Source: a virus
Strand: one strand, 5' to 3'
Virus record (IMG/VR): IMGVR_UViG_3300042897_000994
Coordinates: 96,938 to 160,937 of that record
DNA: 64,000 nt
A program made the position numbers and the translations under genes. Below, piece after piece: positions 16,166-60,667 of this stretch. The notes under the pieces were generated by a model. It ran no database searches. It saw only the letters and a program-made list of their open reading frames with translations, and was not told the origin of the DNA. Positions within the stretch are counted from its first letter, which is position 1. Every line of letters begins with the position of its first letter.

Positions 16166-17230
16166 ATGCCATATTCTGATATTTCGCTTATTACTGATTC
16201 ATATCTTTTATTTCAACCGCTTGATTTCATACAGTTGTCACATGATGAAAACAATTATATCATCGGAAGAGTTGTCAGCTATAATCCAAATACCGGAAAT
16301 CTTGTTTTTACTCCTATTCAGGTAAATGGATCGGGTACTTATAGTTCATGGACTGTAGCTCTGTCTGGTTCGCCAGGTTTGTCCGGTTCTTCTGGTCTTA
16401 GTGGTAGTTCAGGAACATCTGGTTCTTCAGGAACTTCAGGTTCTTCTGGTTCTTCAGGAACTTCAGGTTCTTCAGGATCTAGTGGTAGTTCAGGAACATC
16501 TGGTTCTTCAGGAACTTCAGGTTCTTCTGGTTCTTCAGGAACTTCAGGTTCTTCAGGATCTAGTGGAACTTCAGGTTCTTCGGGATCTTCAGGAACTTCA
16601 GGTTCTTCTGGTTCTTCAGGAACTTCAGGTTCTTCAGGATCTAGTGGAACTTCAGGTTCTTCGGGATCTTCCGGGACATCTGGTTCTTCAGGATCTAGTG
16701 GTTCATCAGGTTCATCAGGAACTAGCGGTACAGATGGTTCTAGCGGTTCTTCAGGAACAAGCGGTTCATCAGGTAGTTCAGGAAGCTCGGGTTCAAGTGG
16801 TTCTTCAGGTTCTTCAGGTTCATCTGGATCTTCAGGATCTTCAGGATCGTCTGGGACAAGTGGTACATCATTCAGTTCTCCATATTCAGGAAACATACAG
16901 ATCAACGGACAAGCTTGGGTAACGGCTGATGCTAACGGTAACACCTCGGCAAGCACCACTGTCAATTGGAATGATAGTAATATACAGACATTTACATTAA
17001 ACGCAGCAACTACAACATTTACTTTCAGTAACCCAAATGCTGGTGCCACATATATTCTTATTATAAGACAAAACGCAGAAGGATCTTATACGATTACATG
17101 GCCTGTAACCGTGGCTTGGGCTGGTGCATCTACGCCTACTATGACAGCAACAGCCAGCAGATACGATGTTTACACTTTTGTTTATGATGGATCTAAGTAC
17201 TTTGGATCATATGTACAAAACTTTACATAA
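16166..17230 (+). CDS. Collagen-like fibre protein with Gly-Ser/Thr-Ser repeats
   Basis: 354 residues. Residues 1-66 form a beta-rich head (VVSYNPNTGNLVFTPIQV), residues about 68-234 are an uninterrupted G-x-y array dominated by GSS, GTS and GLS triplets, and residues 235-354 are a beta-rich tip (NIQTFTLNAATTTFTFSNP ... YDVYTFVYDGSKYFGSYV). G-x-y arrays in phages form trimeric fibre shafts; this one has almost no proline and only Ser/Thr side chains, making it a dense potential O-glycan acceptor. It is followed by a LamG-like protein. Confidence 0.8.
   Translation: MPYSDISLITDSYLLFQPLDFIQLSHDENNYIIGRVVSYNPNTGNLVFTPIQVNGSGTYSSWTVALSGSPGLSGSSGLSGSSGTSGSSGTSGSSGSSGTSGSSGSSGSSGTSGSSGTSGSSGSSGTSGSSGSSGTSGSSGSSGTSGSSGSSGTSGSSGSSGTSGSSGSSGTSGSSGSSGSSGSSGTSGTDGSSGSSGTSGSSGSSGSSGSSGSSGSSGSSGSSGSSGSSGTSGTSFSSPYSGNIQINGQAWVTADANGNTSASTTVNWNDSNIQTFTLNAATTTFTFSNPNAGATYILIIRQNAEGSYTITWPVTVAWAGASTPTMTATASRYDVYTFVYDGSKYFGSYVQNFT
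16367..16868 (+). repeat. Collagen-like coding repeat array (9-base GGTTCTTCA-type units)
   Basis: About 500 bases of in-frame 9-base units such as GGTTCTTCA and GGAACTTCA, with larger blocks of 45-100 bases repeated nearly verbatim (for example around 16410-16480 and 16490-16560). Recombination or slippage in multiples of 9 bases would change shaft length without a frameshift. Confidence 0.9.
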
Positions 17231-19230
17231 TGATAGTATTTCCATTTTCATTTATTAAGTCGATTTCAAATCTAGATGAAGGGCTTATTATTCATTTAGA
17301 TGCAAATGATCCTTCAAGTTATCCTGGTACTGGTACAGCAGTATTTGACTTGGCTGGCCCATACGATCACACTTTAACCGGTGCAACTTACACAGTTCTT
17401 AATGGCATAAGGTGTTTTGATTGCACAACAGGAACTAAAAGAGTTGTTGTGGATGGAACTGGTCCTACTTTACCAACTTCGGGATACACCTATATTACTT
17501 GGGCGAGATTGGAAGCTAATCCATCAGCATTCAGAACATTACTTTACACCAATTCACCTAGATACACACCAATCACAATTCTCGATGGAACTGATACTCT
17601 AGGTTATTGGGACAGTGCATTTAGAAGCTCTGGTTACAACACTGCATCTTCAGTCGGGGTTTGGGTTCAATATGCGATAGTCGGAGATAGTTCATCTCAA
17701 ACATTTTACATAAACGGATTACAAGTTGGAAGTTCAATCTCTTATGGAGCAGGGGGAACTGCACATTTCGGATGGGGAAATAATCATAATGTAACCCAAC
17801 CTTGGGGTTATGTTGCAAACTTGTACTTATACAATAGAAAATTATCCTTTCCTGAGATCGTAGAACAATATAACACACTTTCTCCAGCCTTTAATCTGGT
17901 TCTGGATTATAACACATTTAATACATCATCATATAGTGGTAGTGGAACAACTATCAATGATTTAAGTGGTAATAGTAGGAATGGAACAATCACAGGTTCT
18001 CCAACCTGGACTAGTAATTATTTTACTTTTAGTGATGATTATGTAACAACACCAAATTTAAGTTCAGTAATAACAGCACTTAACGAAGTTCATTCAGTAG
18101 AGGTATGGGTATATCCGACTAATAATGGAGTACTGGTTCAATATAATGGTACTCCGACTCCAAATAATACGGGATACCACGCTTCCGCAATAGAAATAGT
18201 TGGTGGTAATTTAGAAGTTGGACTTTGGGATGGAACTGTATTAGCTTCAACCGGCAACATAGGTGCAGTTTCATTTAATGAATGGCATCAAATAGTTTTA
18301 ACCTACAACGGTTCAGTATGTAGGGGATACCTTGATGGGGTATTTAAGGGTTCGGTGAATGTAGCATGGGATTCACCTATGGATTATTCTCTACCATTTT
18401 ATATGAACTTTGGTCCCCAAGATTCTACAAATCAGGGTGACGGAAGTTATTTTGATGGTAGATTTGGTATAATGCGAGTATATAATACCGCTTTAACCGA
18501 CGCACAGGTATTATCTAATTATAATTCTACCGTACCAACTATCGTTAATATAACCACCAATGGTTTGGTATTATATTACGACCCATCAAGTGCATCATCA
18601 TATCCAGGCAGTGGTACAACTATTACTGATTTAAGTGGTAACGGTAGAAATGGAACGATGTCAAATATAACATATACATCCCCTTACTTTGTATACAATG
18701 GTTCTTCGTCTCAAGTTAGTATTGCTGACAATGCATTATTAGAACCGGGGAGTGGGGATTGGACAATGGAAGTATGGGTTAACCAATCTGTTTCAGGTAA
18801 CGATGTTGTATTAGGAAAGTTCGATCCAGGCGGACTCGCAGTAGATGTGAGTTATAGTATAAGAACAACCAATACAACCTATTATGCTCAAATAGGTTCG
18901 GGCTCTGGATCAGGCTCAACACTATTCGTAAACAGTACAAATTATGTAGGAACTATTGGTTCTTGGTCCCAAATAGTTTATGTATTTACAAATGTTGCTG
19001 CTAATACACTTCAAACATTTGTCAACGGTTCAAGCATAGGTACTGTAAGTCACAGTTTACCAAGTATATTAAACACTTCTGCTAATTTATACATCGGTTC
19101 ATATAATAATGGTGAATCTCTACAATACTTTGACGGTAAAATTGGAATAACCCGCTTATACAATAGAGCATTAACTGCATCGGAAGTTTTGGATAATTAC
19201 AATGCAGATAGATCTAAGTATAGTTTATAA
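17230..19230 (+). CDS. Triple LamG/concanavalin-like fibre or adhesin protein
   Basis: 666 residues made of three similar jelly-roll domains (about 1-217, 218-435, 436-666). Each starts with a version of LVLYYDPSSASSYPGSGTTI-DLSGN-GRNGT and ends with DG-GI-RLYNRALT-EVL-NYN, the hallmark of LamG/concanavalin-A-like lectin domains. It probably binds host glycans as a tail-fibre tip. There is no signal peptide and no catalytic acid cluster, so binding is more likely than hydrolysis. The start overlaps the collagen-like gene stop (TAATG). Gly codons favour GGT more than in metabolic neighbours. Confidence 0.8.
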   Translation: MIVFPFSFIKSISNLDEGLIIHLDANDPSSYPGTGTAVFDLAGPYDHTLTGATYTVLNGIRCFDCTTGTKRVVVDGTGPTLPTSGYTYITWARLEANPSAFRTLLYTNSPRYTPITILDGTDTLGYWDSAFRSSGYNTASSVGVWVQYAIVGDSSSQTFYINGLQVGSSISYGAGGTAHFGWGNNHNVTQPWGYVANLYLYNRKLSFPEIVEQYNTLSPAFNLVLDYNTFNTSSYSGSGTTINDLSGNSRNGTITGSPTWTSNYFTFSDDYVTTPNLSSVITALNEVHSVEVWVYPTNNGVLVQYNGTPTPNNTGYHASAIEIVGGNLEVGLWDGTVLASTGNIGAVSFNEWHQIVLTYNGSVCRGYLDGVFKGSVNVAWDSPMDYSLPFYMNFGPQDSTNQGDGSYFDGRFGIMRVYNTALTDAQVLSNYNSTVPTIVNITTNGLVLYYDPSSASSYPGSGTTITDLSGNGRNGTMSNITYTSPYFVYNGSSSQVSIADNALLEPGSGDWTMEVWVNQSVSGNDVVLGKFDPGGLAVDVSYSIRTTNTTYYAQIGSGSGSGSTLFVNSTNYVGTIGSWSQIVYVFTNVAANTLQTFVNGSSIGTVSHSLPSILNTSANLYIGSYNNGESLQYFDGKIGITRLYNRALTASEVLDNYNADRSKYSL

Positions 19231-28740: not shown

Positions 28741-28754
28741 TAATAAATAATAAA

Positions 28755-32059: not shown

Positions 32060-32062
32060 ATC

Positions 32063-32596: not shown

Positions 32597-32608
32597 ACAA
32601 TAAGCAAT

Positions 32609-33262: not shown

Positions 33263-33271
33263 AATTTTTAA

Positions 33272-34932: not shown

Positions 34933-34939
34933 TTTTTCG

Positions 34940-35038
34940 GTGAAGAAGCTCTTGTACATACCACTAGATTATCACATACACTCTGGTCCATTAATAAAAA
35001 GTTATTTGTCAAATGATAGTTTAGATTTGGACTACTAA
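34940..35038 (+). pseudogene. Possible remnant of a glycosyltransferase start
   Basis: A GTG-started 32-residue frame (VKKLLYIPLDYHIHSG ... LDLDY) that looks like a normal gene start (charged MKK-type opening, hydrophobic strand) but stops after 32 codons. It lies between two glycan genes where most neighbours touch. It is probably a decayed gene, though a real mini-protein cannot be excluded. Confidence 0.35.
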
Positions 35039-35055
35039 TCAATTAAAGAATTTTT

Positions 35056-35676
35056 ATGGAAGAGTCTAAAATATCAAATAACTTTTGGATAAGTAAGAAA
35101 GAATATCCAAATTATCCGTTTATCAAAGAAAGAAGAAAGTACGAATTAGACTTTCTACTGGAAAATATACCAAAAGATACCAACACTTTGTTGGATATTG
35201 GGTGCGGTGACGGATCAACAGTAATTCTCCTTAGAGAAACTACATACATAAAAGATTTTTATTGTTATGATATAGCAGAAGGTTTAATGAGTGGAAATTG
35301 GGGAGAAAGAGATTCTAAAATAATCAAAAAAACGGTAGATTTTAATATTGATCGAAGTCTTCCAGTCACTGATGTTACTATATCTATGAATATCTTTCCC
35401 TGTATTTTTGATGATGCTGTTTTAGATTCGATAATAGGAAATATTAAGTCTGATATTTTTTTAACCAGAATAACATGCGAGCATTCAGAAAGACTAACCA
35501 TAAATAAATATTCAGAAGATCTTTCCGATCACATTGCCTCGGTGTATCGAACTGTTGAAGAATATTTAGAAGTTCTTAAAAAATATTACCCCTATGTTGA
35601 ATATAGAAGATCTTTTCCGGACAAGATAGAAAGTAAGTATGGTACCAAGCAATATTTTTTTATTTGTAAAAGATGA
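35056..35676 (+). CDS. Class I SAM-dependent methyltransferase
   Basis: 206 residues. TLLDIGCGDGSTVILLRE is a textbook SAM-binding motif, with FYCYDIAEGLM as the second acidic strand. The C-terminal half (YRTVEEYLEVLKKYYPYVEYRR) is unassigned. It is coupled to the nucleotidyltransferase by ATGA and may methylate the alcohol or sugar moiety handled there. Confidence 0.75.
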   Translation: MEESKISNNFWISKKEYPNYPFIKERRKYELDFLLENIPKDTNTLLDIGCGDGSTVILLRETTYIKDFYCYDIAEGLMSGNWGERDSKIIKKTVDFNIDRSLPVTDVTISMNIFPCIFDDAVLDSIIGNIKSDIFLTRITCEHSERLTINKYSEDLSDHIASVYRTVEEYLEVLKKYYPYVEYRRSFPDKIESKYGTKQYFFICKR

Positions 35677-36074
35677 AAAGAGTTTATATTCCGGGAGTTT
35701 GGGATCTTTTTCATATCGGGCATTTGAATGTTCTAAGAGAGGCTAAAAAGTTAGGAGATTATCTCGTAGTAGGTGTATGTTCTGATGATATATGCATAAA
35801 TACTAAATGTAAGCCAATTATAAAGGAAGATTGGAGATTAGAAGTAATAGAAAATATTAAATTTGTTGATTATGCACTAGTATATAGAAACTTAGATTAT
35901 TTTCAGTATATTAAAGATCAAGAGATATCAATCTTTGCAGTCGGAGAAGAATTCGGATATCTAGAAGAACATCAAAGGGCTATCGCACTCTGTAAAGAAA
36001 ATAAGATTGAAATGGTTAAAATACCTAGATACCCTGGGATATCTTCTACTATAATAAAGGAAAAGATTTTATGA
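35673..36074 (+). CDS. Cytidylyltransferase-like nucleotidyltransferase (TagD-like)
   Basis: 133 residues. GVWDLFHIGHLNVLREAKK contains the HxGH site, GDYLVVGVCSDD the second motif, and PRYPGISSTIIKEKI the ISSTxI motif. The last stretch matches TagD/Pcyt2-type cytidylyltransferases more closely than the HldE adenylyltransferase domain. It would activate a phospho-alcohol or phospho-sugar (CDP-glycerol, CDP-ethanolamine or similar). A HAD protein and a TagF-like protein follow. Confidence 0.85.
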   Translation: MKRVYIPGVWDLFHIGHLNVLREAKKLGDYLVVGVCSDDICINTKCKPIIKEDWRLEVIENIKFVDYALVYRNLDYFQYIKDQEISIFAVGEEFGYLEEHQRAIALCKENKIEMVKIPRYPGISSTIIKEKIL

Positions 36075-45811: not shown

Positions 45812-46021
45812 ATGGAATCTTCATATTTTGAAATTTGGCTTGAAGTCAAATCAAAACAGTTTATAAATTCTACCATCTTTTCTACAGATTCTTCTCTTGA
45901 AGAAGACATTATGCTGTTTCTAGATGCTGATCCCGGGCTTACTGAAATATTCTCCAGAGAGTTAAAATTCTCTAATGTTTTTGAAGAATTAAAGAAAAAG
46001 ATTACAGAAAAGATCTCGTGA
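45812..46021 (+). CDS. Small hypothetical protein
   Basis: 69 residues from ATG 45812: an alpha/beta start (SSYFEIWLEVKSKQFINSTI) and a helical end (LKFSNVFEELKKKITEKI). An in-frame ATG at 45734 would add 26 residues with no clear structure, inside the inverted repeat. It overlaps the kinase GTG start by 4 bases. Confidence 0.5.
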   Translation: MESSYFEIWLEVKSKQFINSTIFSTDSSLEEDIMLFLDADPGLTEIFSRELKFSNVFEELKKKITEKIS

Positions 46022-46797
46022 AAAAGCGTATTTTAGTGATCGGTGATTCATGCACCGATGAATTTGTGTATGGAGAGTGTAAAAGACTAAATCCCGAAGC
46101 TCCTACTCCAGTTTTTACTCCTACTCACACTTCCTCTAATAGAGGAATGGCTGGAAATGTGGTAGAAAATCTCGAAAGTCTGGGAGTTTTTAGTGTAGAT
46201 TTTATCTCAAATAAAAATCAAATCACGAAGACTCGGTACGTTGAAAAAAATTCAAACTATATTCTTTTGCGTGTTGATCAGAATGATAGAGCAGAAGAAG
46301 TTTCGATGAATGATTTGAGCAATGCAGAAATCGAAAAATATGATGCTGTGATAGTATCTGATTATAACAAAGGATTCTTGCACGAAGAAGCAATAGATTA
46401 TATTCTCAGAATGGCTAAATGCAGTTTTATTGACACAAAGAAACCGTTTGGTGAATGGATTAAGTTCGCATCTTGGGTTAAAGTTAATAAATCTGAATCT
46501 CTAAATTCTGCCCATAATATAGATATTCTAAAAGAAATTAAAAATAGAATGATTGTTACGCTGGGATCTGAGGGGGCTTCTTGGAATGACAGAATCTTTC
46601 CTACTAAACCTGCTGAAGTTAGAGATGTAGCAGGAGCCGGAGATACCTTTATTTCTGCCCTGGTTGCGGCTTATACAAAAACAGTTGACATCAAGAAGTC
46701 TATTAAATTTGCAAATGATTGCGCTTCTAGAGTTGTTAGAAAGCGAGGAGTTACTGATATGTCAGAGATGATAAACTACTACGTTCAACTTAAATGA
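46018..46797 (+). CDS. PfkB-family kinase, HldE/RfaE N-domain-like
   Basis: 259 residues, GTG start. ILVIGDSCTDEFVYGECKRL followed by NPEAPTPVF (25-33) is the signature of the D-glycero-manno-heptose-7-phosphate kinase domain (R.SPEAPVPV in HldE). RGMAGNVVENLESLG and DVAGAGDTFISALVA (203-217) are the PfkB motifs. It is shorter than the HldE domain (about 318). It would help make ADP- or GDP-heptose, a fit with the TibC-like heptosyltransferase at 50084. The adenylyltransferase half is absent here. Confidence 0.8.
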   Translation: MKKRILVIGDSCTDEFVYGECKRLNPEAPTPVFTPTHTSSNRGMAGNVVENLESLGVFSVDFISNKNQITKTRYVEKNSNYILLRVDQNDRAEEVSMNDLSNAEIEKYDAVIVSDYNKGFLHEEAIDYILRMAKCSFIDTKKPFGEWIKFASWVKVNKSESLNSAHNIDILKEIKNRMIVTLGSEGASWNDRIFPTKPAEVRDVAGAGDTFISALVAAYTKTVDIKKSIKFANDCASRVVRKRGVTDMSEMINYYVQLK

Positions 46798-49825: not shown

Positions 49826-50093
49826 TGAGAGCGTAGAGGAACTTGTTCATCGCTACTCAGATGATATGCACATTAACGTGTGTAAGAAAATATGCGAAGC
49901 TTTAAGAAGCAAAGTCGATAAAGTAACTTTGGCCACTATCGAACCAGATGGCCTTGATATTTATTGCACTAAAGAAAATTATTTAGATACTCTCGAAACA
50001 AATCTTCCAGCTATCGAAGAAATGGAAGAATATGAATTGTGTACAGAAGTTCACGATTGGATCTCGAAATTAAGATACGATAAATGGAAATAA
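49803..50093 (+). CDS. Small hypothetical protein
   Basis: 96 residues from ATG 49803; an in-frame start at 49728 lies deep in the upstream gene and adds a low-complexity 25 residues. The body is helical and acidic (EELVHRYSDDMHINVCKKIC, NLPAIEEMEEYELC). No family recognised. It overlaps the large glycosyltransferase by 10 bases. Confidence 0.55.
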   Translation: MILQRRDDESVEELVHRYSDDMHINVCKKICEALRSKVDKVTLATIEPDGLDIYCTKENYLDTLETNLPAIEEMEEYELCTEVHDWISKLRYDKWK

Positions 50094-53000
50094 AAATAAG
50101 AGCACATACATGTTATATTGGCAAAACTGGATTTGCCGCACATGCTAGAGGATTTTTTAGAAATCTTTCATACCACACAGATTTACGAGTTCGAAATTAC
50201 ACGTGGGATGATAAACCCGAAAGTCACCTCGTCGATAGAGATTATCAAATTCTAGAAACTATCAGTTTAAATACTTCAGGTATACACGAATTGGAAGAAG
50301 GGGGTGGAGGAAGTTTTGAAGATTTTCCAATGCAGCACGTAGAAGCCTGGTCTCATCTAAGCTTTAAAGATTTTAGAGGAGAGAGCGAATTTGTACCAGA
50401 TATTGATATTGTGTTGATGGACACTAATCACTATTACTATTATGAAAAGCCCGATCCCAGAGTAAAGATCAGAATTGCATATCTTGTATGGGAGACAACT
50501 CGCTTAGAAGACAATTTCTACAGAGCAATTCAGAATAATTTTACTCACATCTTTGTTCCTACAAAATGGCACAGAGAAATGTTGCTAGAACAGGGATATC
50601 CCCTACACCGAATATTTGTAGTCCCAGAAGGAATTGATGAGGAGTTTCATAATAGTACAGTTACTGAAATTCTACCAGATTATTCTGATAATAGATTTAA
50701 GTTTCTTTTCTTCGGTAGATGGGATTATAGAAAAGCGGTACCTGAAATTCTCAAGTCTTTTCTAGAAGAATTCAAACCCGAAGAAGAGGTAGACTTTATT
50801 TTAAGTGCTGATAACTTGTTCTCTATTGATGGAATGAATTCTACCGAAGAGAGATTAGAATTTCATGGCTTACAGGACGATAGGATAAAGATAAAACACT
50901 TTCCTTCTAGATCTGATTATGCAAATTTTGTAAAGACAGGACATGTTCTTGTAACATGTGCTCGAAGTGAAGGTTGGAATATTCCATTAGCAGAAGCAAT
51001 TGCAGCTGGAACACCAGTCATCTATTCAAATTACGGAGCTCAGCTAGAATTTGCAGAAGGTATCGGAACTCCAGTTCAGTACACAGAAATGCGTAAAGCT
51101 GAACTAGGTACTGGTAAGTCTTGGTTTCAAGGATACTTACCAGGTGACTATTGTGAGCCAGACTATGATGATCTAAAGAGAGCATTAAGAGAAACTTACG
51201 AGAATTGGAATGAAAAGAAAGCTGAAGCGATGGAACAAGTACTTCGTATCAGAGAAGAATTTTCATGGTCAAGAGTTGCAAAAACCGGCTTCGAATACTT
51301 GAAGCTCTTAATGAATCAAGAAGACGCAACTGGAAAGTCCGGGACTAAAGATCTTGTAGTTATTCTATCGCACCCCGATAACGAGGAGAGAGAAGCATAT
51401 CTAAAAATATGTAATCATGAGATCAAACGTCAAGGATATAAAACTCTAGTAATGAGTCATATCCCTACCAATGTAGATTCAAATTATACCCTGGTAGTTA
51501 AAGAGAATCCTGTCTTTACTCTTGAAGAGTGGGGTAATAGGAAACCCTTTCCTCGGCTTTTGCTTAAAGGAGAGGCCTTCGAATTAACTCATACACAAAG
51601 AAATGACTATGGATATGCAGTTTATGATCTTCTAAAAAGAGCACTAAGATTTGCGTTTGTTGAAGGATTCGAGAGAATATATTTTGTGAATTATGATTAT
51701 CTTCTTTTTGATGAAAAGACTCTAAAGACTCTAGAAGAACAAGTCGAAGAGAGTAGTGACTTTTTTGTGGGTACTCATTGGAAAGACAATCTCATAAACA
51801 CCGGTCTTTTTTCGGTAGATGTTCAAAAATTCATGAATCTTCTATTTAAGATTAACACACCAGAAGAATATGTAAATTATTCTCCAGAAAGCTCTTCTAT
51901 AGAAAATGTTATTACAAAACTGGTAAATTCTTCACCTTATACTCGATCAATTTTGCAAACATCTGAAGTACAAGGTCATAGTAAATTTGATCTTCTTTCT
52001 TCTTTTGAAGTTACTTCTTTGTCAGGTTCAATAGTTCTTCCCTGTATCAATCAATCTGGAGATCTTTTCCTTTATCTAAGCGGAAAGCCTGGATCTGAAT
52101 CGAGTTTTAGAATTTTACAAGGTGACAAATATTTAGACTTGGATTTTAGCACTCAGAAATTTGTTAAGTTAGAAAGAGAAGCAAGCATACCCGAAGAAAT
52201 CAGAGTAGAGGATCTGAAGACAAAGAATCGGTTGATAGTTTCTCTAGATAATCCCGGAAGACTAAAAACATCTGAAGAATTTGAATCAGAATCCCTAATA
52301 GAAGATTCAGAGATTATTTCATTTCATTTTGTTAAAGGCCCTTGGTTAGAACTAACTACTCGAGTAAAGAAAGGAAAATATCGAGTAGAATTTATCGATA
52401 AAAAAGAGAACAAAGCTGTTTATACACATAATATCGAAAATAACTGTTGGGTAGGATGTAGCAGAGAATACTATGTAGATTGGTTGGTAAAAGTCACTGA
52501 CTTAAGTAAAGACAAAGTAATATTCGAACATCATTTCGATCTAAATGAAAAGAGAGTATTTATTTCTTTAGAATCTGAATCTTTAGGAGATACTATCGCT
52601 TGGTTTGCACCAATAGAAGAATTCCAGAAGAAGCATAATTGCAAATTAATAGTCAGTACTTTTAAAAATGATCTTTTCAGATCTGAATATCCTAGCATCC
52701 AGTTTGTAGAAAGAGGAGTTGGAGTACCTAATATTTATGCAGGATATAAAATCGGATGGTTCTATGAAAGAGATTCTGATACTTATAATACTTCAATGCA
52801 CCCGTGCCATTTTAGAGATATTCCTATGCAACAAGCTGCATCAGATATTTTAGGATTAGATTTAAAGACGTACAAACCAAGATTAGTCAAGCCCCAAACT
52901 GGAAGACCAATTGAAGGAAAATATATTTGCATTGGAATCCATGCAACCGCACAAGCTAAATATTGGAATCATCCACATGGATGGCAAACTGTAGTAGACT

Positions 53001-53425
53001 ATTTGAAATCTGAAGGATACGAAGTAGTCCTTATTTCCAAAGAAACTGGAACTTATATGGGCAATGCGGCGCCTGAAGGAATTATCGATAGATCTGGTAA
53101 TTTTCCTCTAAGCGATCGAATTAATTATCTGGCTCATGCAGATGCATTTATTGGAGTTGGATCAGGTTTAAGTTGGTTGGCCTGGGCATCAGGAACTAAA
53201 GTAGTAATGATCTCTGGATTCAGTAAACCACATACTGAATTTGAAGATGAAAATCTTCTCAGAATTTGGAATCCAAATGTCTGCAATGGATGTTTCAATA
53301 GATTTAGATTAGATGCAGGTGATTGGAATTGGTGTCCAGATCAGAAAGGAACTACGAGACAATTTGAATGTAGCAAATCTATTCAACCCGAAGATGTAAT
53401 CTATCAACTAAAAAACTTTTTATAA
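50084..53425 (+). CDS. Trifunctional glycosyltransferase: GT4 domain, middle domain, TibC-like O-heptosyltransferase
   Basis: 1113 residues. Residues 1-420: GT4 (IFVPTKWHREMLLEQGYP, FFGRWDYRKAVPEIL, VLVTCARSEGWNIPLAEAIA). Residues about 425-620: a GT-A-like domain related to the downstream genes at 54714-57889. Residues about 827-1113: autotransporter O-heptosyltransferase (TibC/Aah) with SLGDTIAW (833-840), TAQAKYWN, GVGSGLSWLAWA, ISGFS, and the Fe-finger cysteines C1067, C1070, C1084, C1096. TibC-type enzymes put heptose on Ser of surface proteins. Ser/Thr-rich fibre repeats here are candidate acceptors. A heptose-kinase-like gene lies at 46018. The specific acceptor is inference. Confidence 0.85.
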   Translation: MEIKIRAHTCYIGKTGFAAHARGFFRNLSYHTDLRVRNYTWDDKPESHLVDRDYQILETISLNTSGIHELEEGGGGSFEDFPMQHVEAWSHLSFKDFRGESEFVPDIDIVLMDTNHYYYYEKPDPRVKIRIAYLVWETTRLEDNFYRAIQNNFTHIFVPTKWHREMLLEQGYPLHRIFVVPEGIDEEFHNSTVTEILPDYSDNRFKFLFFGRWDYRKAVPEILKSFLEEFKPEEEVDFILSADNLFSIDGMNSTEERLEFHGLQDDRIKIKHFPSRSDYANFVKTGHVLVTCARSEGWNIPLAEAIAAGTPVIYSNYGAQLEFAEGIGTPVQYTEMRKAELGTGKSWFQGYLPGDYCEPDYDDLKRALRETYENWNEKKAEAMEQVLRIREEFSWSRVAKTGFEYLKLLMNQEDATGKSGTKDLVVILSHPDNEEREAYLKICNHEIKRQGYKTLVMSHIPTNVDSNYTLVVKENPVFTLEEWGNRKPFPRLLLKGEAFELTHTQRNDYGYAVYDLLKRALRFAFVEGFERIYFVNYDYLLFDEKTLKTLEEQVEESSDFFVGTHWKDNLINTGLFSVDVQKFMNLLFKINTPEEYVNYSPESSSIENVITKLVNSSPYTRSILQTSEVQGHSKFDLLSSFEVTSLSGSIVLPCINQSGDLFLYLSGKPGSESSFRILQGDKYLDLDFSTQKFVKLEREASIPEEIRVEDLKTKNRLIVSLDNPGRLKTSEEFESESLIEDSEIISFHFVKGPWLELTTRVKKGKYRVEFIDKKENKAVYTHNIENNCWVGCSREYYVDWLVKVTDLSKDKVIFEHHFDLNEKRVFISLESESLGDTIAWFAPIEEFQKKHNCKLIVSTFKNDLFRSEYPSIQFVERGVGVPNIYAGYKIGWFYERDSDTYNTSMHPCHFRDIPMQQAASDILGLDLKTYKPRLVKPQTGRPIEGKYICIGIHATAQAKYWNHPHGWQTVVDYLKSEGYEVVLISKETGTYMGNAAPEGIIDRSGNFPLSDRINYLAHADAFIGVGSGLSWLAWASGTKVVMISGFSKPHTEFEDENLLRIWNPNVCNGCFNRFRLDAGDWNWCPDQKGTTRQFECSKSIQPEDVIYQLKNFL

Positions 53426-53428
53426 AAA

Positions 53429-54076
53429 ATGGCTAACGGAATTTACAAAATCACTGAAGATTTTGAACAAAAACTTGCTGAGTATACAGGAGCAAAATTC
53501 GCAATAACTGTAGATAATCAGTCTAATGCTCTTTTTCTTGCTCTTATGTACGAGGGAGTAAAAGGAATAGAAATTACAATCCCTTCCCGAACTTACCCAT
53601 CAGTTCCTTGTGAAATTATTCACGCAGGAGCAAAGGTTAACTTTACTCCCGTGAAAGGAAAAAAAATTAAAGGTGCATATCAGCTTGAACCTACTAATGT
53701 TTGGGATTCGGCTCTGGCTTTTACTGCTGATATGTACAAACCTGGAACTCATATGTGTATTTCTTTTACAGGTCCCTACAAACATTTTAAGTTGTCAAAG
53801 GGTGGAGCTATTCTAACTGATAACTACGATGCATATCTGTGGTTCAAGAGAGCACGTTATTCAGGTCGAAGGGAAACTTCTTATCATGATGATCACTTCG
53901 ATATGTTGGGTTGGAATTTCTATATGATGCCTGAACTAGCAGCTCGAGGTCTCCTCTTGATTAACCAATTCTACAACACAGATGGAACAAAGAAGCACAA
54001 TCCTGATCTAGAGCTTCCATATCCAGATCTCTCTAAATTTGAGATTTATACAAAAGCAAACAGAGAAGATGAGTAA
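53429..54076 (+). CDS. DegT/DnrJ-type sugar aminotransferase, shortened
   Basis: 215 residues. FEQKLAEYTGAKFAITVDNQ, IEITIPSRTYPSVPCEIIHAGA, SFTGPYKHFKLSKGGAILTD (PLP Lys region) and ARYSGRR are DegT/DnrJ/EryC1/StrS features. Family members have about 370 residues; here the C-terminal third is missing. It may need a partner subunit, or be a minimal active form. It probably makes an amino sugar, with the acetyltransferase next door. Confidence 0.75.
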   Translation: MANGIYKITEDFEQKLAEYTGAKFAITVDNQSNALFLALMYEGVKGIEITIPSRTYPSVPCEIIHAGAKVNFTPVKGKKIKGAYQLEPTNVWDSALAFTADMYKPGTHMCISFTGPYKHFKLSKGGAILTDNYDAYLWFKRARYSGRRETSYHDDHFDMLGWNFYMMPELAARGLLLINQFYNTDGTKKHNPDLELPYPDLSKFEIYTKANREDE

Positions 54077-54680
54077 GAGTCTGGCAATATATGGATTCGG
54101 TGGCCATGCTAGAGAGGTTTCTTTTCAGATGAAAGACATCATTGAGAAAGAAAATCTAGAATTACAGTTCTATGTAGATGATGAGTATGCGAATGATCTA
54201 GCTAAGCCGATTTCAGAATTCAATCCAGAAGAAATGATGATGATGGTAGCAGTCGCAGATCCTAAAGATAGAGAAATGATGGTTAAAAGGCTACCTGCCG
54301 AAACTGAATTTTTTACCTTTATTCATAATGCTGCTATTGTTTTTGATTTTGGAAATTTCAGTATCGGAGAAGGTTCTTTTATCGGAGCTTTTTCGATAAT
54401 TACCACAAATGTGCATCTTGGAAATCATGCAATCTTAAACAGAGGTAATCATATCGGTCACGATACTGTAGTAGGTGACTATTTAAGCATGATGCCCGGA
54501 GCAATTATATCAGGTAATGTAACAGCGGGAAACCGGTTATATATGGGATCAAATTCATCAATTAGAGAAAAATTAAAAGTTTGTGATGATGTGACTCTGG
54601 GTTTGAACTGTGGTTTAGTTAAAAATGTAATGGAGCCTGGAATTTATGTAGGGTTGCCAGCAAAAAAATTAAAAATATGA
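54069..54680 (+). CDS. NeuD/PglD-type sugar acetyltransferase
   Basis: 203 residues from ATG 54069, 8 bases inside the aminotransferase; an earlier in-frame ATG at 54039 is less likely. SLAIYGFGGHAREVSFQMKD is the N-terminal Rossmann-like domain, and VFDFGNFSIGEGSFIGAFS, NRGNHIGHDTVVGDYLSMMP, SGNVTAGNRLYMGSN are left-handed beta-helix hexapeptides. NeuD/PglD acetylates UDP-amino sugars. It follows an aminotransferase as in Pgl-type pathways. Confidence 0.85.
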   Translation: MSKSLAIYGFGGHAREVSFQMKDIIEKENLELQFYVDDEYANDLAKPISEFNPEEMMMMVAVADPKDREMMVKRLPAETEFFTFIHNAAIVFDFGNFSIGEGSFIGAFSIITTNVHLGNHAILNRGNHIGHDTVVGDYLSMMPGAIISGNVTAGNRLYMGSNSSIREKLKVCDDVTLGLNCGLVKNVMEPGIYVGLPAKKLKI

Positions 54681-54713
54681 AAGAATTTAATTTTATCGAG
54701 TTCAAGAAAAATT

Positions 54714-55694
54714 ATGAAAAAGATCGCGCTTATAAGTACTTTTTGTGATACAGAAGAAAAGCAAAATGTTTTAAGGGAAACTATCATTAAAATCAAGAGT
54801 CTGGGAGTAGATGTAATGGCACTCGGACCAAATTTCATTCCTATTAAAAATGATATTATAGATTTATGTGACTTTTTCTTTTATACTAAAGAAAATCCTG
54901 TATTAAAATGGCCTGATAAAGCATTTACTCACTGGAGAAGAAGACCTTTAGAAGACGGTAGATCTATTATGTTTCATGAATGTTTACCAGATTATGGATG
55001 GTCTGCATTATATCAAACAAAAAAATTATCACAAATTGCGCTGACATTCGATTATGATATTTTCTATCATATGATCTATGATGTTGAAATTGATGAAATT
55101 ATCGAAAGTGAATTGATAGGTTCAGAAGTAAATTTAATACACCCTAGAAGAGATCCTAGAGATCCTACAAAACTTTGGGAAACTACTTTACACTTTATGA
55201 TTTTTGATAGAGAAATAATGGAAAGTATAGAGAAAGAAATAGATCTCAATTCATATCGAAATGATTATGGATTTGCAGAAAATGAAGCTTCAAAATGGAC
55301 TAAGAAATTTCCAATCAAAATTTCAAATCATTGTGTAAAAGATAGAATATATTACTATGAAAATTTCGATTTTTTTAATTATTCAATGTTCGATGATTTT
55401 AAAATGTTTTTATCAAAAAATGATAAAACTCAACATGAGCATGATACTTTAGGTTGGATTGATTTAACTGATAATTTAAGAATTTGTCTTTATGACTTTA
55501 ATCATGAAATTGAAATTGAAATTGAAATCAATGGAGAAAAATTTATAAAAAATATTAAAGAATGGGAAATTATTGAATTTCCTTACAGTTCTACAAATAT
55601 TAGGAGCATAATCTTTACTTATAACAATAAAGTGGTAGACTTTACTGATAGATACGAAAAAATCTCAATGAATCAAGTGTATTATAACAGATAA
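54714..55694 (+). CDS. Glycosyltransferase-like protein, member A of a local family
   Basis: 326 residues. Opens KKIALISTFCDTEEKQNVLRETII, then VMALGPNFIPI, RDDYDIFYHMIYDVEIDEI (acidic GT-A site), and a C-terminal beta domain (DTLGWIDLTDNLRICLYDFN). The two following genes and the middle of the 1113-residue enzyme share the layout. Substrate unknown. Confidence 0.6.
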   Translation: MKKIALISTFCDTEEKQNVLRETIIKIKSLGVDVMALGPNFIPIKNDIIDLCDFFFYTKENPVLKWPDKAFTHWRRRPLEDGRSIMFHECLPDYGWSALYQTKKLSQIALTFDYDIFYHMIYDVEIDEIIESELIGSEVNLIHPRRDPRDPTKLWETTLHFMIFDREIMESIEKEIDLNSYRNDYGFAENEASKWTKKFPIKISNHCVKDRIYYYENFDFFNYSMFDDFKMFLSKNDKTQHEHDTLGWIDLTDNLRICLYDFNHEIEIEIEINGEKFIKNIKEWEIIEFPYSSTNIRSIIFTYNNKVVDFTDRYEKISMNQVYYNR

Positions 55695-56710
55695 TGTATA
55701 TGCAGAAGAAAAAAGATCTTATAATTATAACTGCTCATTGTCCATCCGAAGACAGAAGAGCAATTCTTCTTGATTTAGTGATAGGTCTACAACCAGTTAG
55801 AAAGGATTTTGATCTTATGGTAATAAGTCACACTCCAATAAGCACAGACGTTCAAGAAAGAGTAAACTGGTCTATATATGATGAAGACAATGAGCTGTTG
55901 AAAGATTGGATATATCAGAATGAGCCGTGGTTTTCTCCTAATGATACTATGAGAATTCAATCTATCTTTTTTGGGAGTGGAAATACTTACTTAACTCTGC
56001 ATAAACAACTAATTACGGGATATGCAATGTCTAAAGCATTTGGATATGAAAAAGTACAATTTATTGAATATGATGCATACTTCCAAGATTTTACAGAATT
56101 TTACAATAATTCTCGTGCATTAGATGAATATGATGCTATTCTATATACCAAAAATGATTCAGTTTTTGATACCTTAGAATATGGAATCGGTAATTTTCAT
56201 GCAGCGAAAATATCAAGTATGCCAGAAAGCATATTTAAGTTTGACAGAGAAGAAATTTTAAATGAAATTGAAAATAGTGCTTCTAAAACTACAGAAGTAA
56301 GAACTCACCGAATATACACTTCTGAAAATAGAAAAGTTCTCTTTAAAGATCACAATTTGATAATGAAGAACGGAAATATACTTAGAATGGTGGATTTTCA
56401 TAAAGGCGAATTTGAAATGCAGTGGGCAATTCCTTTTTATGATCATTCTTCAGATGAAATTAGATTTTTAGTTTGGAATGAAGCTTCAGAAAAACCTACA
56501 GATGTAGTTGTAATAGTCAATAATGAAAAAATAGTAAATTTTAATAAAATAGAAAAATTTCAGTGGTCTATTAAAACACTAGGTCATCCAAATGATATAA
56601 AGAATATCACAATTTTGATTAACAATAAAATGAAAAGACATATAGAATTAAATGAAAATAATATAGATCTTTTCAAAGAACTAAATAGAATTTACTATCA
56701 GAATGAATGA
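55694..56710 (+). CDS. Glycosyltransferase-like protein, member B of a local family
   Basis: 338 residues. KKDLIIITAHCPSEDRRAIL, FDLMVISHTPISTDVQER, AFGYEKVQFIEYDAYFQDF (acidic site) and a C-terminal beta domain with QWSIKTLGHPNDIKNITILI. The opening parallels residues 428-460 of the gene at 50084 (DLVVILSHPDNEEREAYL). The start overlaps the previous stop by TAATG. Confidence 0.65.
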   Translation: MYMQKKKDLIIITAHCPSEDRRAILLDLVIGLQPVRKDFDLMVISHTPISTDVQERVNWSIYDEDNELLKDWIYQNEPWFSPNDTMRIQSIFFGSGNTYLTLHKQLITGYAMSKAFGYEKVQFIEYDAYFQDFTEFYNNSRALDEYDAILYTKNDSVFDTLEYGIGNFHAAKISSMPESIFKFDREEILNEIENSASKTTEVRTHRIYTSENRKVLFKDHNLIMKNGNILRMVDFHKGEFEMQWAIPFYDHSSDEIRFLVWNEASEKPTDVVVIVNNEKIVNFNKIEKFQWSIKTLGHPNDIKNITILINNKMKRHIELNENNIDLFKELNRIYYQNE

Positions 56711-56722
56711 AATTGAAAGGGA

Positions 56723-56856
56723 TTTGATACTATTAAAGTTAAAAAATGAAAATTGATAAAGTAATTTTTAGTATGGATGATAATCCGACTTACGCTGACT
56801 TTTGGCCTATCCAAGCTGACCTTGTAAAAACCATACTTAAAGCAGATCCTATATAA
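56723..56856 (+). pseudogene. Truncated copy of the 58467 gene start plus its upstream sequence
   Basis: Positions 56723-56745 are identical to 58441-58463, the end of the FkbM gene. An ATG at 56746 then encodes MKIDKVIFSMDDNPTYADFW (close to MKISKVIFGLDDNPIYADFW at 58467) through 36 codons to a TAA at 56854. It is a degraded duplicate of the boundary between those two genes. Confidence 0.75.
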
Positions 56857-56950
56857 TGATAAATTACCTTATTATGATAATGAATATGATGAAAATGGGG
56901 AGTTTATTGGATGGTTAAGGAAAAAATATCCTAAAAATATACAACATTAA
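56857..56950 (+). pseudogene. Possible C-terminal gene fragment
   Basis: In another frame, the DNA reads about 30 codons (YNDKLPYYDNEYDENGEF, then LRKKYPKNIQH) to a TAA at 56948-56950. It looks like the end of a protein, without its start. It probably is the other half of the deleted duplicate. Confidence 0.4.
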
Positions 56951-57889
56951 ATGAAGGATCTGATTCTTATAACAGCATATACGCCAGACGCAGAAAGAAT
57001 TTCTATATTAGATGATCTTTTAGAAAGTATAGACAGAGAACATTTTGATGTGATGATCTCTTCACACAGTTCTATTTCAGATGAAGTAGTTGAAAAATCT
57101 GACTATTTTATCTTTCAGAAAAAGAATGTTTTATTGACAGATTTAGATCAAAAAATCAAATGGTGGTTTGGAAACGAATCTCTGGAAATTTCAACAACCG
57201 AATTTAAAAACTTTAATCATTTAATAGCAGCTGGATCTCTCATTTTAAATGGCCTTTCTGCAGCTAAATCTTTTGGATACGAAAAGGTTCATTTTTTAGA
57301 GTATGATGGTCTTATAATAGATGATACTGAATTTAGAGAGAACTCTCAAATATTAGAAGAATATTCAGTGGTATGGTATGAACATCATGATTTACATACT
57401 TCCTTTCCGTTAATTTCTTTTAATGTTAAAAAAATCAAAGAAAATTGGTTTGATCTTAGCGATAATATTTTCTATTTATTTTTAGAAGAATCAGAAGATA
57501 ATATTCTTGAATCTTTTAATTTTAAAATGATAAGAGAAGAAAAAGCTTTCTGTAAAGGTGTTTCTTCTTTATTAAGCGGAAAAATAGAAACAAATAAATA
57601 TACTACAAACGAAGAAGACTGGATAACAGTAGTTTCTGATGGAAACAATTTTGTCCTTTTTGATTTTAATCATACTGGAATAAACGATATTAGCGTAATA
57701 ATAAACGATGATACTGTAAAAGTTTTTAGCAATCACAACAAAGGAACTTGGATGACTCGCACCCTCGGTAGAACTGAAGAAATCAATAAAATAAAAATAT
57801 TTCTTAATGACGCTTTAATACGTTCATATGATTTTAGTATTATTGATAAAGAAAAATACATCAAAAAAAATTGGATAAAGAACAAATGA
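56951..57889 (+). CDS. Glycosyltransferase-like protein, member C of a local family
   Basis: 312 residues. KDLILITAYTPDAERISILDD, FDVMISSHSSISDEVVEK, SFGYEKVHFLEYDGLIIDD, and a beta domain with MTRTLGRTEEINKIKIFLN. Clear paralogue of the gene at 55694. The start follows the fragment's stop directly. Confidence 0.65.
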   Translation: MKDLILITAYTPDAERISILDDLLESIDREHFDVMISSHSSISDEVVEKSDYFIFQKKNVLLTDLDQKIKWWFGNESLEISTTEFKNFNHLIAAGSLILNGLSAAKSFGYEKVHFLEYDGLIIDDTEFRENSQILEEYSVVWYEHHDLHTSFPLISFNVKKIKENWFDLSDNIFYLFLEESEDNILESFNFKMIREEKAFCKGVSSLLSGKIETNKYTTNEEDWITVVSDGNNFVLFDFNHTGINDISVIINDDTVKVFSNHNKGTWMTRTLGRTEEINKIKIFLNDALIRSYDFSIIDKEKYIKKNWIKNK

Positions 57890-58470
57890 AGTATGACTTT
57901 ATAGAAATAGGAACTAGCGATTTTGATACTCTGCTAGAAACTACAACAGGTAAAATTGGAATATCTATAGAACCTCTAAAATATTATTTAGATAACTTAC
58001 CGAATAATGACAATGTCATTAAAGTTAATTGCGCGATTAGCGATTCAAACTTTGAAACTGACGTTTTTTGGATATCTCCAGATGATATAAAAAAATATGA
58101 TCTCCCCCATTGGTTAAGAGGTTGTAATTCTATTATAAATCCTCACCCTACAGCGTTTAAAGAGTTAGCAGAACATAATTTATCTACAATATACAAAACT
58201 TCTAAGTGTAAATGTATTACTTGGTCTACATTGATAGATATTTACGACATAACTTCTGTCTATTTATTAAAAATAGATACTGAAGGACACGACTGTAAAA
58301 TAATTCAAAATATTTTATCGTCCAACTCAATATTACCTAACGAAATACTATTTGAATATAATTCTTTGACCGATGAAAATGAATTTCAAAGTATTATGGA
58401 TTCATTAAGAAATCACGGTTATTATAAAATTGAAAGTGGTTTTGATACTATTAAAGTTAAAAAGCAATGA
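57886..58470 (+). CDS. FkbM-family methyltransferase, short form
   Basis: 194 residues from ATG 57886 (ATGA overlap); the in-frame TTG at 57871 is less likely. YDFIEIGTSDFDTLLE, GISIEPLKYYLDNL, VNCAISDSNFETDVF and YLLKIDTEGHDCKIIQNI are FkbM features (strand, acidic second strand, catalytic D-x-E-G). It would O-methylate a sugar. Its C-terminal codons GFDTIKVKK are duplicated at 56720. Confidence 0.8.
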   Translation: MKYDFIEIGTSDFDTLLETTTGKIGISIEPLKYYLDNLPNNDNVIKVNCAISDSNFETDVFWISPDDIKKYDLPHWLRGCNSIINPHPTAFKELAEHNLSTIYKTSKCKCITWSTLIDIYDITSVYLLKIDTEGHDCKIIQNILSSNSILPNEILFEYNSLTDENEFQSIMDSLRNHGYYKIESGFDTIKVKKQ

Positions 58471-60026
58471 AAATAAGTAAAGTAATTTTTGGGTTAGACG
58501 ATAATCCAATATATGCTGATTTTTGGCCAATACAGGCTAAATTGGTTAGAGAAGTTTTAAAAGCAGAACCCGTATTATTTCACATTACGAATGAAGATAG
58601 CGACTTTTACAAAGATGCACATGGAGGAATAGTTAAAAAGATAAACAAAAATAATTGCTCAGATATTATAACTTCATTTCAAAGTCAGGTGGTTCGTATG
58701 TATGCCACAAAATACTTCCCTGATGAAATTTGCTTAACCGCAGATATTGATATGTTGATGATAAGCGAAGATTATTTCGTAAAGCAAATAGAAAACATTG
58801 ACGATGAGTCTTTAATTATTATGGATTCCAAGGCTTATGATTTAGAAAGAATTGAGTGCCAAAATCACAATGAATCATGTGAAAACAGATATCCAATTTG
58901 TTATATTATAGGCAAAGGAAAAAATTTCAATAAAGTATTAAACACTGATAGGAGTTTTGAAGAATATGTTGATGCATTACAAAAACTTAATTTGGGGTGG
59001 GGGACAGATGAATTATATTTCGGTGACAAAGTAGATAATACTAATCACGGAATAAATGTTGTTAAATTAGTTAGAAATTGGACAACTCCGTGGAAATCGG
59101 AAAAAAGAATCGATAGACATAATTTTCCTACAGCAAATCTAAATTCTATTTTAATAGAGTCTCAGAAGAGAGACGGTATTTATGACATTGACAAACTAAA
59201 ATCAGGATATTACATCGATGCGCATTGTCCTAGGACATATAATGATTATAAAAAAGAAATAAACGAATTAGTAGATATAATACTAAAAAACAAACCTATG
59301 AACATAGAAAATTTTGAATGGGGTTGGATGGATGAACCTTCTAATGTATATCACATTTACCCTGACGGTTCTCATAAACACATGGGCCAATATCACAAAG
59401 AATCATTAACCAAAGAAATATTCATCGACAAATGTTATGAAAGATTTTTTGAAGTAGAAAAAGATGATATAGTAGTCGACATCGGAGCCAGTGTAGGACC
59501 TTTTACATACTCAATTCTACACAAAAAACCCAAACATGTTTTTTGTTTTGAGCCTAGCGAAAGAGAATTTAAAATCTTAGTTAAGAATATCATTGGTAGT
59601 CCCGCAACTCCTATCAATAAAGGCATATCTAGTGTAAATTCCACAGTAGAAAATGACCATCTATTCGGCGGAGAAAGCTCAATGGAAGCTATTACATTTC
59701 AAAAATTCATAGAATTATACAGTATAGAAAAAATTGATTTTTTGAAAGTAGACTGTGAAGGAGGAGAATTTGATATTTTTACACAGGAAAATCTAGAATG
59801 GATTAAAAATAATGTGAAAAAAATAACAGGCGAGTGGCATATACGTCTACATAATCATGATTATGTTGAAAAGTTCAGATTTTTTAGAGATGTATTTTTA
59901 AAAGAATTCCCAAATCATGAAGTCTATTCTATAGATAATGTCAACATCAAATGGGATTTGTGGAATGAACATTTTTTAGAACACTACAAACAAGTTATTA
60001 TTCACATAGATAACCGCAAAGACTAG
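58467..60026 (+). CDS. Fusion of a glycosyltransferase-like domain and an FkbM methyltransferase
   Basis: 519 residues. Residues 1-285: GT-A-like domain (KVIFGLDDNPIYADFWPIQA, YFPDEICLTADIDMLMISED, GWGTDELYFGDKV). Residues about 325-519: FkbM (DIVVDIGASVGPFTYSIL, HVFCFEPSEREFKIL, DFLKVDCEGGEFDIF). It overlaps the previous gene by ATGA. The fusion suggests sugar transfer followed by O-methylation of the same residue, to cap a chain. The start region is duplicated as the pseudogene at 56746. Confidence 0.75.
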   Translation: MKISKVIFGLDDNPIYADFWPIQAKLVREVLKAEPVLFHITNEDSDFYKDAHGGIVKKINKNNCSDIITSFQSQVVRMYATKYFPDEICLTADIDMLMISEDYFVKQIENIDDESLIIMDSKAYDLERIECQNHNESCENRYPICYIIGKGKNFNKVLNTDRSFEEYVDALQKLNLGWGTDELYFGDKVDNTNHGINVVKLVRNWTTPWKSEKRIDRHNFPTANLNSILIESQKRDGIYDIDKLKSGYYIDAHCPRTYNDYKKEINELVDIILKNKPMNIENFEWGWMDEPSNVYHIYPDGSHKHMGQYHKESLTKEIFIDKCYERFFEVEKDDIVVDIGASVGPFTYSILHKKPKHVFCFEPSEREFKILVKNIIGSPATPINKGISSVNSTVENDHLFGGESSMEAITFQKFIELYSIEKIDFLKVDCEGGEFDIFTQENLEWIKNNVKKITGEWHIRLHNHDYVEKFRFFRDVFLKEFPNHEVYSIDNVNIKWDLWNEHFLEHYKQVIIHIDNRKD

Positions 60027-60028
60027 AC

Positions 60029-60053
60029 TGTAGATATATAAAAAAAATCTACA
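60029..60053 (+). promoter_or_regulatory. Late-promoter-like box in a 7-bp hairpin before a fibre gene
   Basis: TGTAGAT (60029-60035) pairs with ATCTACA (60047-60053), and GATATATAAA is at 60033-60042, 13 bases before ATG 60056. The arrangement copies the one at 9132. Confidence 0.5.
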
Positions 60054-60055
60054 CA

Positions 60056-60667
60056 ATGTCCCAAAGATCTAGAAGTTTTCTAAAACAAAGATTCGAAACA
60101 GGAGATAAACCTCTTGCTGATGATTACTCAGATTGGTTAGACTCCAATCTAATTAAAGGAGAAGACTCTGTTGGCGATCTAGTAGATGTAGATTTGACAG
60201 GTATTTCTGTGGGAGAAGTTTTACAATGGGATGGAACTAAATTTGTTAGATCTAATATAGCAGGAACTTCAGGTTCTTCAGGAACTAGCGGAACTAGCGG
60301 AACTAACGGTACTTCCGGTACAAACGGCACTTCTGGTACAAACGGAACTTCTGGGACTTCGGGAGCAACCGGAGCACCTGGAACTTCGGGATCATCTGGA
60401 ACTAGTGGATCCGGGACAAGTGGATCTTCGGGATCTTCTGGTACGAGTGGAAGTACTCCTACATATACAAAAATATTTGAACAAATCTATTTAACGGGTT
60501 TAGGAGCACCTTACAACTTACCAGCTATTGGACCTGATCCATTAGCACCTTATAGTATTAGATATGTACCTGATCCTAGCGTAGGAAACATAATGTTCTG
60601 GGCAGTCGTTACTGACAATCCATCACCCAATACTATTGTCTTTAAACTCTATCCTACTTCTCCCTAA
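60056..60667 (+). CDS. Collagen-like fibre protein
   Basis: 203 residues. An N-terminal domain (SFLKQRFETGDKPLADDYSDW, ISVGEVLQWDGTKFVRSN) of the type that attaches tail fibres or decorates capsids, then residues 70-133 with GTS, GSS, GTN and one GAP triplet, then a C-terminal beta domain (YTKIFEQIYLTGLGAPYNLP). It is a second Ser/Thr-rich collagen-like protein, preceded by a late-type box. Confidence 0.8.
   Translation: MSQRSRSFLKQRFETGDKPLADDYSDWLDSNLIKGEDSVGDLVDVDLTGISVGEVLQWDGTKFVRSNIAGTSGSSGTSGTSGTNGTSGTNGTSGTNGTSGTSGATGAPGTSGSSGTSGSGTSGSSGSSGTSGSTPTYTKIFEQIYLTGLGAPYNLPAIGPDPLAPYSIRYVPDPSVGNIMFWAVVTDNPSPNTIVFKLYPTSP
60263..60454 (+). repeat. Collagen-like coding repeat, second fibre gene
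   Basis: About 190 bases of GGAACTAGC- and GGTACTTCC-like 9-base units coding G-T/S-S and G-T-N triplets. It differs in codons from the array at 16.4 kb, so it was not copied recently. Confidence 0.8.

Follow-up and report, generated by a model that had tools for sequence, protein, structure and literature searches.

The modification catalysed by the autotransporter heptosyltransferase TibC takes place in the cytosol. In TibC, Asp-110 is the catalytic base, Thr-226, Lys-230, Arg-286 and Trp-305 contact the donor, Arg-286 touching the adenine, and iron is bound by Cys-339, 342, 358 and 370; residue 300 decides which of two heptose epimers is chosen, and changing Pro-300 to Ser broadens heptose use rather than abolishing it (PMC4358343). 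Here we describe a relative encoded by a virus, in the final 64 kb (the window, i.e. the whole stretch analysed) of the 160,937-base environmental virus record IMGVR_UViG_3300042897_000994. The gene at 50084–53425 of the window encodes a genuine TibC-type enzyme whose fused form and setting are both new, and sequence comparison supports a link between TibC-family genes and collagen-like proteins of Gly-Thr/Ser-Ser triplets in both phages and bacteria. The enzyme probably modifies the phage’s own collagen-like fibre of Gly-Thr-Ser (GTS) triplets, by heptosylation.

The open reading frame (ORF) has exactly the coordinates given in the original prediction, and its product is laid out as follows:

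50084..53425, + strand: fused glycosyltransferase of 1113 amino acids (aa), GT4 + GT-A-fold + TibC-type O-heptosyltransferase domain, ATG start
50084..51328, + strand: GT4 domain, residues 1–415 (PF00534 8e-9, PF13692; phrog_2170 7e-32; Z 33.0 to 3oy2 over 359 residues)
51341..51973, + strand: predicted GT-A-fold domain, approximately residues 420–630 (fold comparison of an AlphaFold2 model of residues 420–740, mean predicted local distance difference test score, pLDDT, 73.9)
52004..52306, + strand: beta-rich stretch and low-confidence linker, approximately residues 641–741 (secondary structure, pLDDT)
52307..53413, + strand: TibC-type domain, residues 742–1110, with beta-barrel, GT-B catalytic domain and iron-finger
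52589..52591, + strand: Asp836, equivalent of the TibC catalytic base Asp-110 (alignment)
53282..53371, + strand: iron-finger Cys 1067, 1070, 1084 and 1096, equivalent to TibC Cys-339, 342, 358 and 370 (alignment)

The C-terminal domain matches the autotransporter heptosyltransferase family TIGR04414 with 342 bits (E 3.7e-102, curated cut-off 200), and a phmmer comparison of the TibC sequence of 4rap with the phage domain gave E 4.5e-62. A TibC fold had been set beforehand as the check on this domain, and the predicted structure confirms it, the AlphaFold2 model of residues 719–1113 matching 4rap with Z 41.0 and 2.4 Å over 367 residues. The models are of monomers, assembly into dodecamers being a trait of the TibC/Aah family. 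The motifs SLGDTIAW, TAQAKYWN and SGLSWLAWA and the four Fe-finger cysteines named in the original prediction are all present, the cysteines in alignment with those of TibC. Its identification of a TibC-like part therefore stands, but the length does not: the domain takes in ~370 residues, including the N-terminal beta-barrel, and not 290. The donor contacts are all kept in the alignment, as T955, K959, R1012 and W1031, and the position of Pro-300 is occupied by Gly. At the tip of the beta-hairpin thumb, TibC Phe-265/Val-266 align with Tyr-Met in the window enzyme, by sequence alignment only.

The two domains expected ahead of the TibC part were also recovered. GT4 membership is given by PF00534 (35.7 bits, cut-off 26.4), phrog_2170 and the fold match to 3oy2, the GT-B fold being indicated by both the family hidden Markov model (HMM) and fold comparison. 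The modelled middle domain, about residues 420–640 by fold, appears GT-A-like, with mannosylglycerate synthase 2bo4 as its best match (Z 15.4) and nucleotidyltransferases scoring close behind. The Pfam scan returned no family above cut-off for this domain, and its weak matches, e.g. BRCC36_C, were discarded as falling below cut-off. A DXD motif is usual in GT-A enzymes; when the middle domain is aligned with the window ORFs starting at 54714, 55694 and 56951 (alignment A3), only Tyr-Asp is invariant at the probable DXD-type site.

Relatives of the enzyme were detected at 27 IMG/VR loci in a first scan and in at least 587 confirmed IMG/VR stretches by an alignment-based scan. The best 80 of these stretches were retained. 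Comparisons among phages used 72 phage clusters, and a scan of genome contigs added 15 bacterial loci. The equivalents of Asp-110, Lys-230, Trp-305 and the four cysteines are invariant in all 72 phage and all 15 bacterial cluster representatives, and the position of Thr-226 holds Thr or Ser. The three-domain layout of the window recurs in the Microcystis phage Mel-JY01 (PP395634.1, L029; 37% identity, 86% covered), where the homologue at 4750–8430 is annotated only as “methyltransferase FkbM”, and similar fused layouts occur at six other loci (L003–L005, L033, L034 and L036). Elsewhere the enzyme is split, with a GT4 protein adjoining a GT-A/TibC protein (L006, L008 and L009), or TibC is solitary, at ~385 aa. 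One fused relative (L003, 9161–10501) bears an additional methyltransferase (PF13578) C-terminal of its TibC domain. The left end of PP395634.1 contains a 1016-aa plus-strand collagen-like ORF of GTS and Gly-Ser-Ser (GSS) triplets, within 1–3052; the minus-strand genes annotated at 1–651 and 739–2298 overlie this ORF, and that annotation is probably wrong. As to the phage itself, a 561-aa protein of its record, which we take to be a T4-type major capsid protein, was matched in 513 phage records, mostly cyanophages, the best being an uncultured phage at 62%.

At many loci the TibC-family gene has beside it a large collagen-like ORF rich in Gly, Ser and Thr, and PF01391 was found in 25 of 31 TibC-positive records. 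Control records were selected by PhoH, which is presumably the product of window ORF 23189, and all 20 of them carry collagen-like repeats (PF01391 over cut-off in 16), while only five carry TIGR04414. Since every control has such fibres, mere co-presence with TibC is worthless, and co-occurrence was dropped as evidence. Position was considered next: the nearest collagen ORF is no more than 5 kb from TibC in 10 of 21 records, where the remaining genes of these records would predict 3.1 (combined p 7e-4). These 21 derive from the 25 PF01391-positive records by removal of the near-duplicates G003, G004 and G023 and, for size, G005 and W02, and by addition of G030 from the controls; neither the window's own record nor most solitary-TibC phages contribute to the signal.

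The kind of triplet was the strongest of the three controls. Ser and Thr make up a mean 0.74 of the X and Y positions of triplets in the 21 TibC-positive records and 0.14 in nine TibC-negative ones, a comparison which is asymmetric in that whole records stand on the TibC-positive side and stretches on the control side. The triplets themselves are Gly-Thr-Ser/Gly-Ser-Ser in TibC-positive records and mostly Gly-x-Gln in the TibC-negative controls. On the control side, stretches of 11 of the 15 TibC-negative records were used, of which nine gave triplets and two none; these stretches lie mostly near listed collagen matches, those of G046, G040 and G043 coming from the record start. Proline is scarce in the triplets of TibC-positive records (0.00–0.09 of X/Y), and Ser occupies Y in both GTS and GSS, the most frequent triplets. 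In an independent sample drawn by repeat type, TIGR04414 was present in 14 of 28 GTS-repeat records compared with three of 24 Gly-x-Gln records (Fisher p 0.007), one of these three also bearing long G-[ST]-[ST] runs. This sample came from 80 of 120 stretches per pattern; every listed record of 50 kb or more was taken, and duplicates were removed. Strand agreement between TibC and the repeats was mixed by eye in this sample and was not used.

The pairing of enzyme and repeats seems to occur in bacteria too, where solitary TibC genes stand beside GTS/GSS-repeat proteins that look exported, their N-termini resembling signal or lipoprotein peptides by eye. An ORF with GTS/GSS runs lies within 1 kb of TibC at 10 of the 15 bacterial loci, which is the unbiased figure, and at eight of them the distance is 8–172 bp. 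The other five include two phage-like layouts (L120 and L124), two short contigs (L118 and L123) and one locus with a run 5 kb off (L121). Genomes (2.6–5.1 Mb) were then searched for nine of the ten loci where a repeat ORF adjoins TibC, all but L127, and in these 111 of 137 five-triplet G-[ST]-x matches fall within 3 kb of TibC; as the genomes were chosen for their adjacent repeat ORFs, this shows the rarity of such repeats elsewhere and is not an unbiased rate. Adjacency, together with this rarity, ties the TibC family to GTS repeats outside phages. Two individual loci may be mentioned: the 21-kb locus L115 is without a match to the five-triplet pattern, yet a neighbouring ORF has GTS/GTN triplets, and L122 (genome G104, contig C73, ~282–285 kb) has GTS/GSS runs on both flanks of its TibC gene.

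Gene order in the relatives also bears on the donor sugar. The gene directly after TibC is a nucleotidyltransferase of the heptose-1-phosphate adenylyltransferase type in 17 of the 72 phage clusters, followed in 13 of the 17 by a heptose-kinase-type gene, i.e. a split HldE-type pair. Two such pairs have their best matches in TIGR02199 and TIGR02198, below the curated cut-offs. All 17 representatives with the adenylyltransferase have Val at the position of Arg-286, hence the loss of this arginine is no argument against heptose.

In the window, putative donor-pathway genes, candidate acceptors and the neighbours of the fused enzyme gene are the following:

46018..46797, + strand: PfkB kinase, 259 aa, nearest to heptose-7-phosphate kinase of the HldE N-domain type (TIGR02198, 147 bits)
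35673..36074, + strand: nucleotidyltransferase of glycerol-3-phosphate cytidylyl or heptose-1-phosphate adenylyl type (TIGR01518 71 bits, TIGR02199 63 bits)
16166..17230, + strand: collagen-like fibre, 15 GTS and 37 GSS triplets, candidate acceptor (PF01391 89.5 bits, cut-off 27.2)
17230..19230, + strand: fibre-like protein containing LamG-type (PF13385) domains, immediately downstream of the GTS fibre (Pfam)
53429..54076, + strand: short sugar aminotransferase of DegT/DnrJ/EryC1 type, 215 aa (PF01041 5.6e-16)
54039..54680, + strand: sugar acetyltransferase of NeuD/PglD type (TIGR03570 140 bits, below the cut-off of 160.8)
54714..57889, + strand: three ORFs (54714, 55694 and 56951) akin to the GT-A-fold middle domain (alignment A3)
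57871..60026, + strand: two FkbM-type methyltransferase genes (57871 and 58467) (PF05050)
60056..60667, + strand: collagen-like fibre of GTS/GSS triplets, closing the co-directional cassette (PF01391 31.9 bits; triplet counts)

From the enzyme through the GTS fibre (50084–60667), the genes lie on a single strand with overlaps or gaps below 35 bp and one exception of 240 bp. The Gly-Ser/Thr-Ser fibres that the original prediction had noticed in the genome are indeed there, as the collagen-like triplets at 16166–17230 and 60056–60667. Its heptose-kinase-like gene at 46018, 3.3 kb upstream of the fused enzyme gene, is a PfkB kinase with TIGR02198 as best NCBIfam match, but it misses the curated cut-off, and for this reason we call it heptose-kinase-like only. 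Kinases of this type were found in 35 phage records, mainly of marine cyanophages, and some are annotated beside or as heptose-phosphate enzymes. Two of the three ORFs akin to the middle domain (56951 and 55694) match its relatives by blastp. The 215-aa aminotransferase matches a profile of 360 positions in two stretches and is possibly reduced or inactive.

Further from the enzyme, 19 plus-strand ORFs follow one another at 23914–37993, among them a GDP-mannose dehydratase, a GDP-fucose synthase, a GT10 fucosyltransferase-type gene, a GT92/GT2 gene and methyltransferases. A 274-aa ORF at 44840–45664 encodes an ABC-transporter membrane region (PF13748), the ATPase domain being unmatched within it. 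A Pfam scan of 19 window ORFs gave no autotransporter family. The RNA fold across the junction at 53380–53480 was unremarkable (z -0.18), and a tRNA scan of the 64-kb window found none.

Were the fibre the substrate, the gene product would be a phage enzyme of several domains that glycosylates protein in the cytosol. Its TibC domain would move heptose from an ADP-heptose onto serines of the Gly-Thr/Ser-Ser repeats, before virion assembly. The GT4 and GT-A-fold domains, the aminotransferase, the acetyltransferase and the FkbM methyltransferases could plausibly build the glycan, lengthen it or cap it. In the likeliest order, O-heptosylation of fibre serines would come first, and the fused glycosyltransferase domains and the products of the neighbouring genes would then act on the heptose. 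Most simply, a sugar coat on a near-proline-free triple helix would stabilise and protect the fibre, and it could also alter adsorption. Glycosylated threonine has been named as a means of stabilising collagen (PMC3368898), which makes a stabilising role of the fibre sugar plausible.

Several observations weigh against this proposal. The original prediction had the phage glycosylating its own fibres, and while the comparative association with GTS repeats in phages and bacteria favours this, the nearest collagen ORF in the window’s own record lies 6.6 kb from the enzyme gene, which is unremarkable for that record by itself (fraction of genes at least as close, 0.246). In phages with the heptose operon, collagen ORFs are likewise distant from TibC (e.g. 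38 kb in G016 and 26 kb in G017). Half of the GTS-repeat records in the independent sample (14 of 28) are without TibC, one control (G028, the lone exception) has GTS/GSS repeats without it, and the possession of collagen-like repeats by all the PhoH-selected controls counts here as well; moreover, the association statistics ignore the relatedness of the records, which are themselves fragments. On the side of the chemistry, TibC modifies Ser but not Thr in its repeat-protein acceptor (PMC4358343), Arg is kept at the position of Arg-286 in only 23 of the 72 phage and five of the 15 bacterial representatives, the window kinase scores 147 bits where the TIGR02198 cut-off is 345, and both scores of the 35673 nucleotidyltransferase fall below cut-off.

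An association with one type of repeat is not expected from modification of the host surface or of DNA, and we therefore rate modification of the fibre as probable and a host-surface role as unlikely. In a host-surface role the enzyme would alter lipopolysaccharide (LPS), capsule or an adhesin, changing the receptor and excluding competing phages. This is the published reading for pelagimyophage glycosyltransferases (PMC7029224) and one of the readings offered for freshwater actinophages (PMC10202952), and an island of general glycan genes does lie in the window (gmd, GDP-fucose synthase, a GT10-type gene and other glycosyltransferases). TibC and Aah, however, act on proteins (PMC4358343), both the link to one repeat type and the pairs found in bacteria suggest repeat proteins as the target, and the split between GTS and Gly-x-Gln repeats would be left unexplained. 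We consider glycosylation of modified phage DNA highly improbable. The 432-aa ORF at 43538–44836, which we take to be thymidylate-synthase-like, is longer than usual and could bear on base modification. A role on DNA is also known for phage glycosyltransferases in general (PMC12619734), but TibC is a protein glycosyltransferase (PMC4358343) and the linkage found here is to repeat proteins.

It is also doubtful, to a slightly greater degree than for the host surface, that the enzyme glycosylates fibre protein with a sugar other than heptose, its TibC fold having been adapted to a different nucleotide sugar. In 49 of the 72 phage representatives Arg-286 is missing, in all 72 Pro-300 is replaced, and the window has genes of gmd, GDP-fucose-synthase and UDP-galactopyranose (UDP-Galp)-mutase types which could supply other activated sugars. 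Yet in the window enzyme itself none of the donor residues, Arg-286 included, has been lost, and the 17 adenylyltransferase-linked representatives suggest that Val-286 is compatible with heptose; a heptose-type nucleotidyltransferase and kinase directly follow TibC in 13 of the 72 clusters, and the Pro-300 to Ser change in TibC retains heptose use (PMC4358343).

Beyond heptosylation of this phage’s own fibre, we suggest tentatively that TibC-family enzymes outside the autotransporter systems may be the glycosyltransferases of a widespread prokaryotic O-heptosylated “glyco-collagen”, consisting of proline-poor GTS/GSS triple helices. If so, such material would be exported by some bacteria and serve many large phages as fibre material, the sugar stabilising the helix in place of the hydroxyproline of animals; some phages would encode the fibre in one genome with the enzyme and parts of the pathway to its donor, and the fused glycosyltransferases would extend the chain. 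This would assign a function to many uncharacterised glycosyltransferases of large aquatic phages and would explain how collagen-like phage fibres form stable triple helices nearly without proline. It would also broaden the TibC family from Escherichia coli adhesins to a modification of repeat proteins common to bacteria and phages, and make the phage enzyme the second, after L230 of mimivirus, among viral enzymes that glycosylate collagen. In the literature searched, which leaves out most subscription journals, we found no link between a heptosyltransferase and collagen-like repeats, a paper on the Cronobacter flagellum being the sole match for the two together, no phage paper by title among those on TibC autotransporter heptosyltransferases, and nothing on Microcystis phage Mel-JY01.

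Our enzyme agrees with TibC and Aah (BAHT; TIGR04414; PDB 4rap, 4rb4) over its C-terminal 370 residues in HMM, fold, active site and cysteines. It differs in being encoded by a phage, in being fused behind GT4 and GT-A-fold domains, which add 740 residues, in having Gly for Pro-300, and in its candidate acceptor, collagen-like GTS repeats where theirs is the passenger of an autotransporter. The genes directly after TibC in the phage relatives have their best matches in the kinase and adenylyltransferase halves of HldE (RfaE), although the phage version is split into two proteins and its scores fall below cut-off. Mycobacteriophages similarly place glycans on their own virion proteins, those of the capsid and tail tube (Freeman et al. 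2023, as cited in PMC12619734), which are other substrates than collagen-like fibres. With mimivirus L230, a bifunctional lysyl hydroxylase and glucosyltransferase, our enzyme would share the role of a viral enzyme glycosylating low-proline viral collagen (PMC9614988), but the activities are unrelated, L230 placing glucose on hydroxylysine (PMC9614988) where the phage enzyme is predicted to place heptose on serine.

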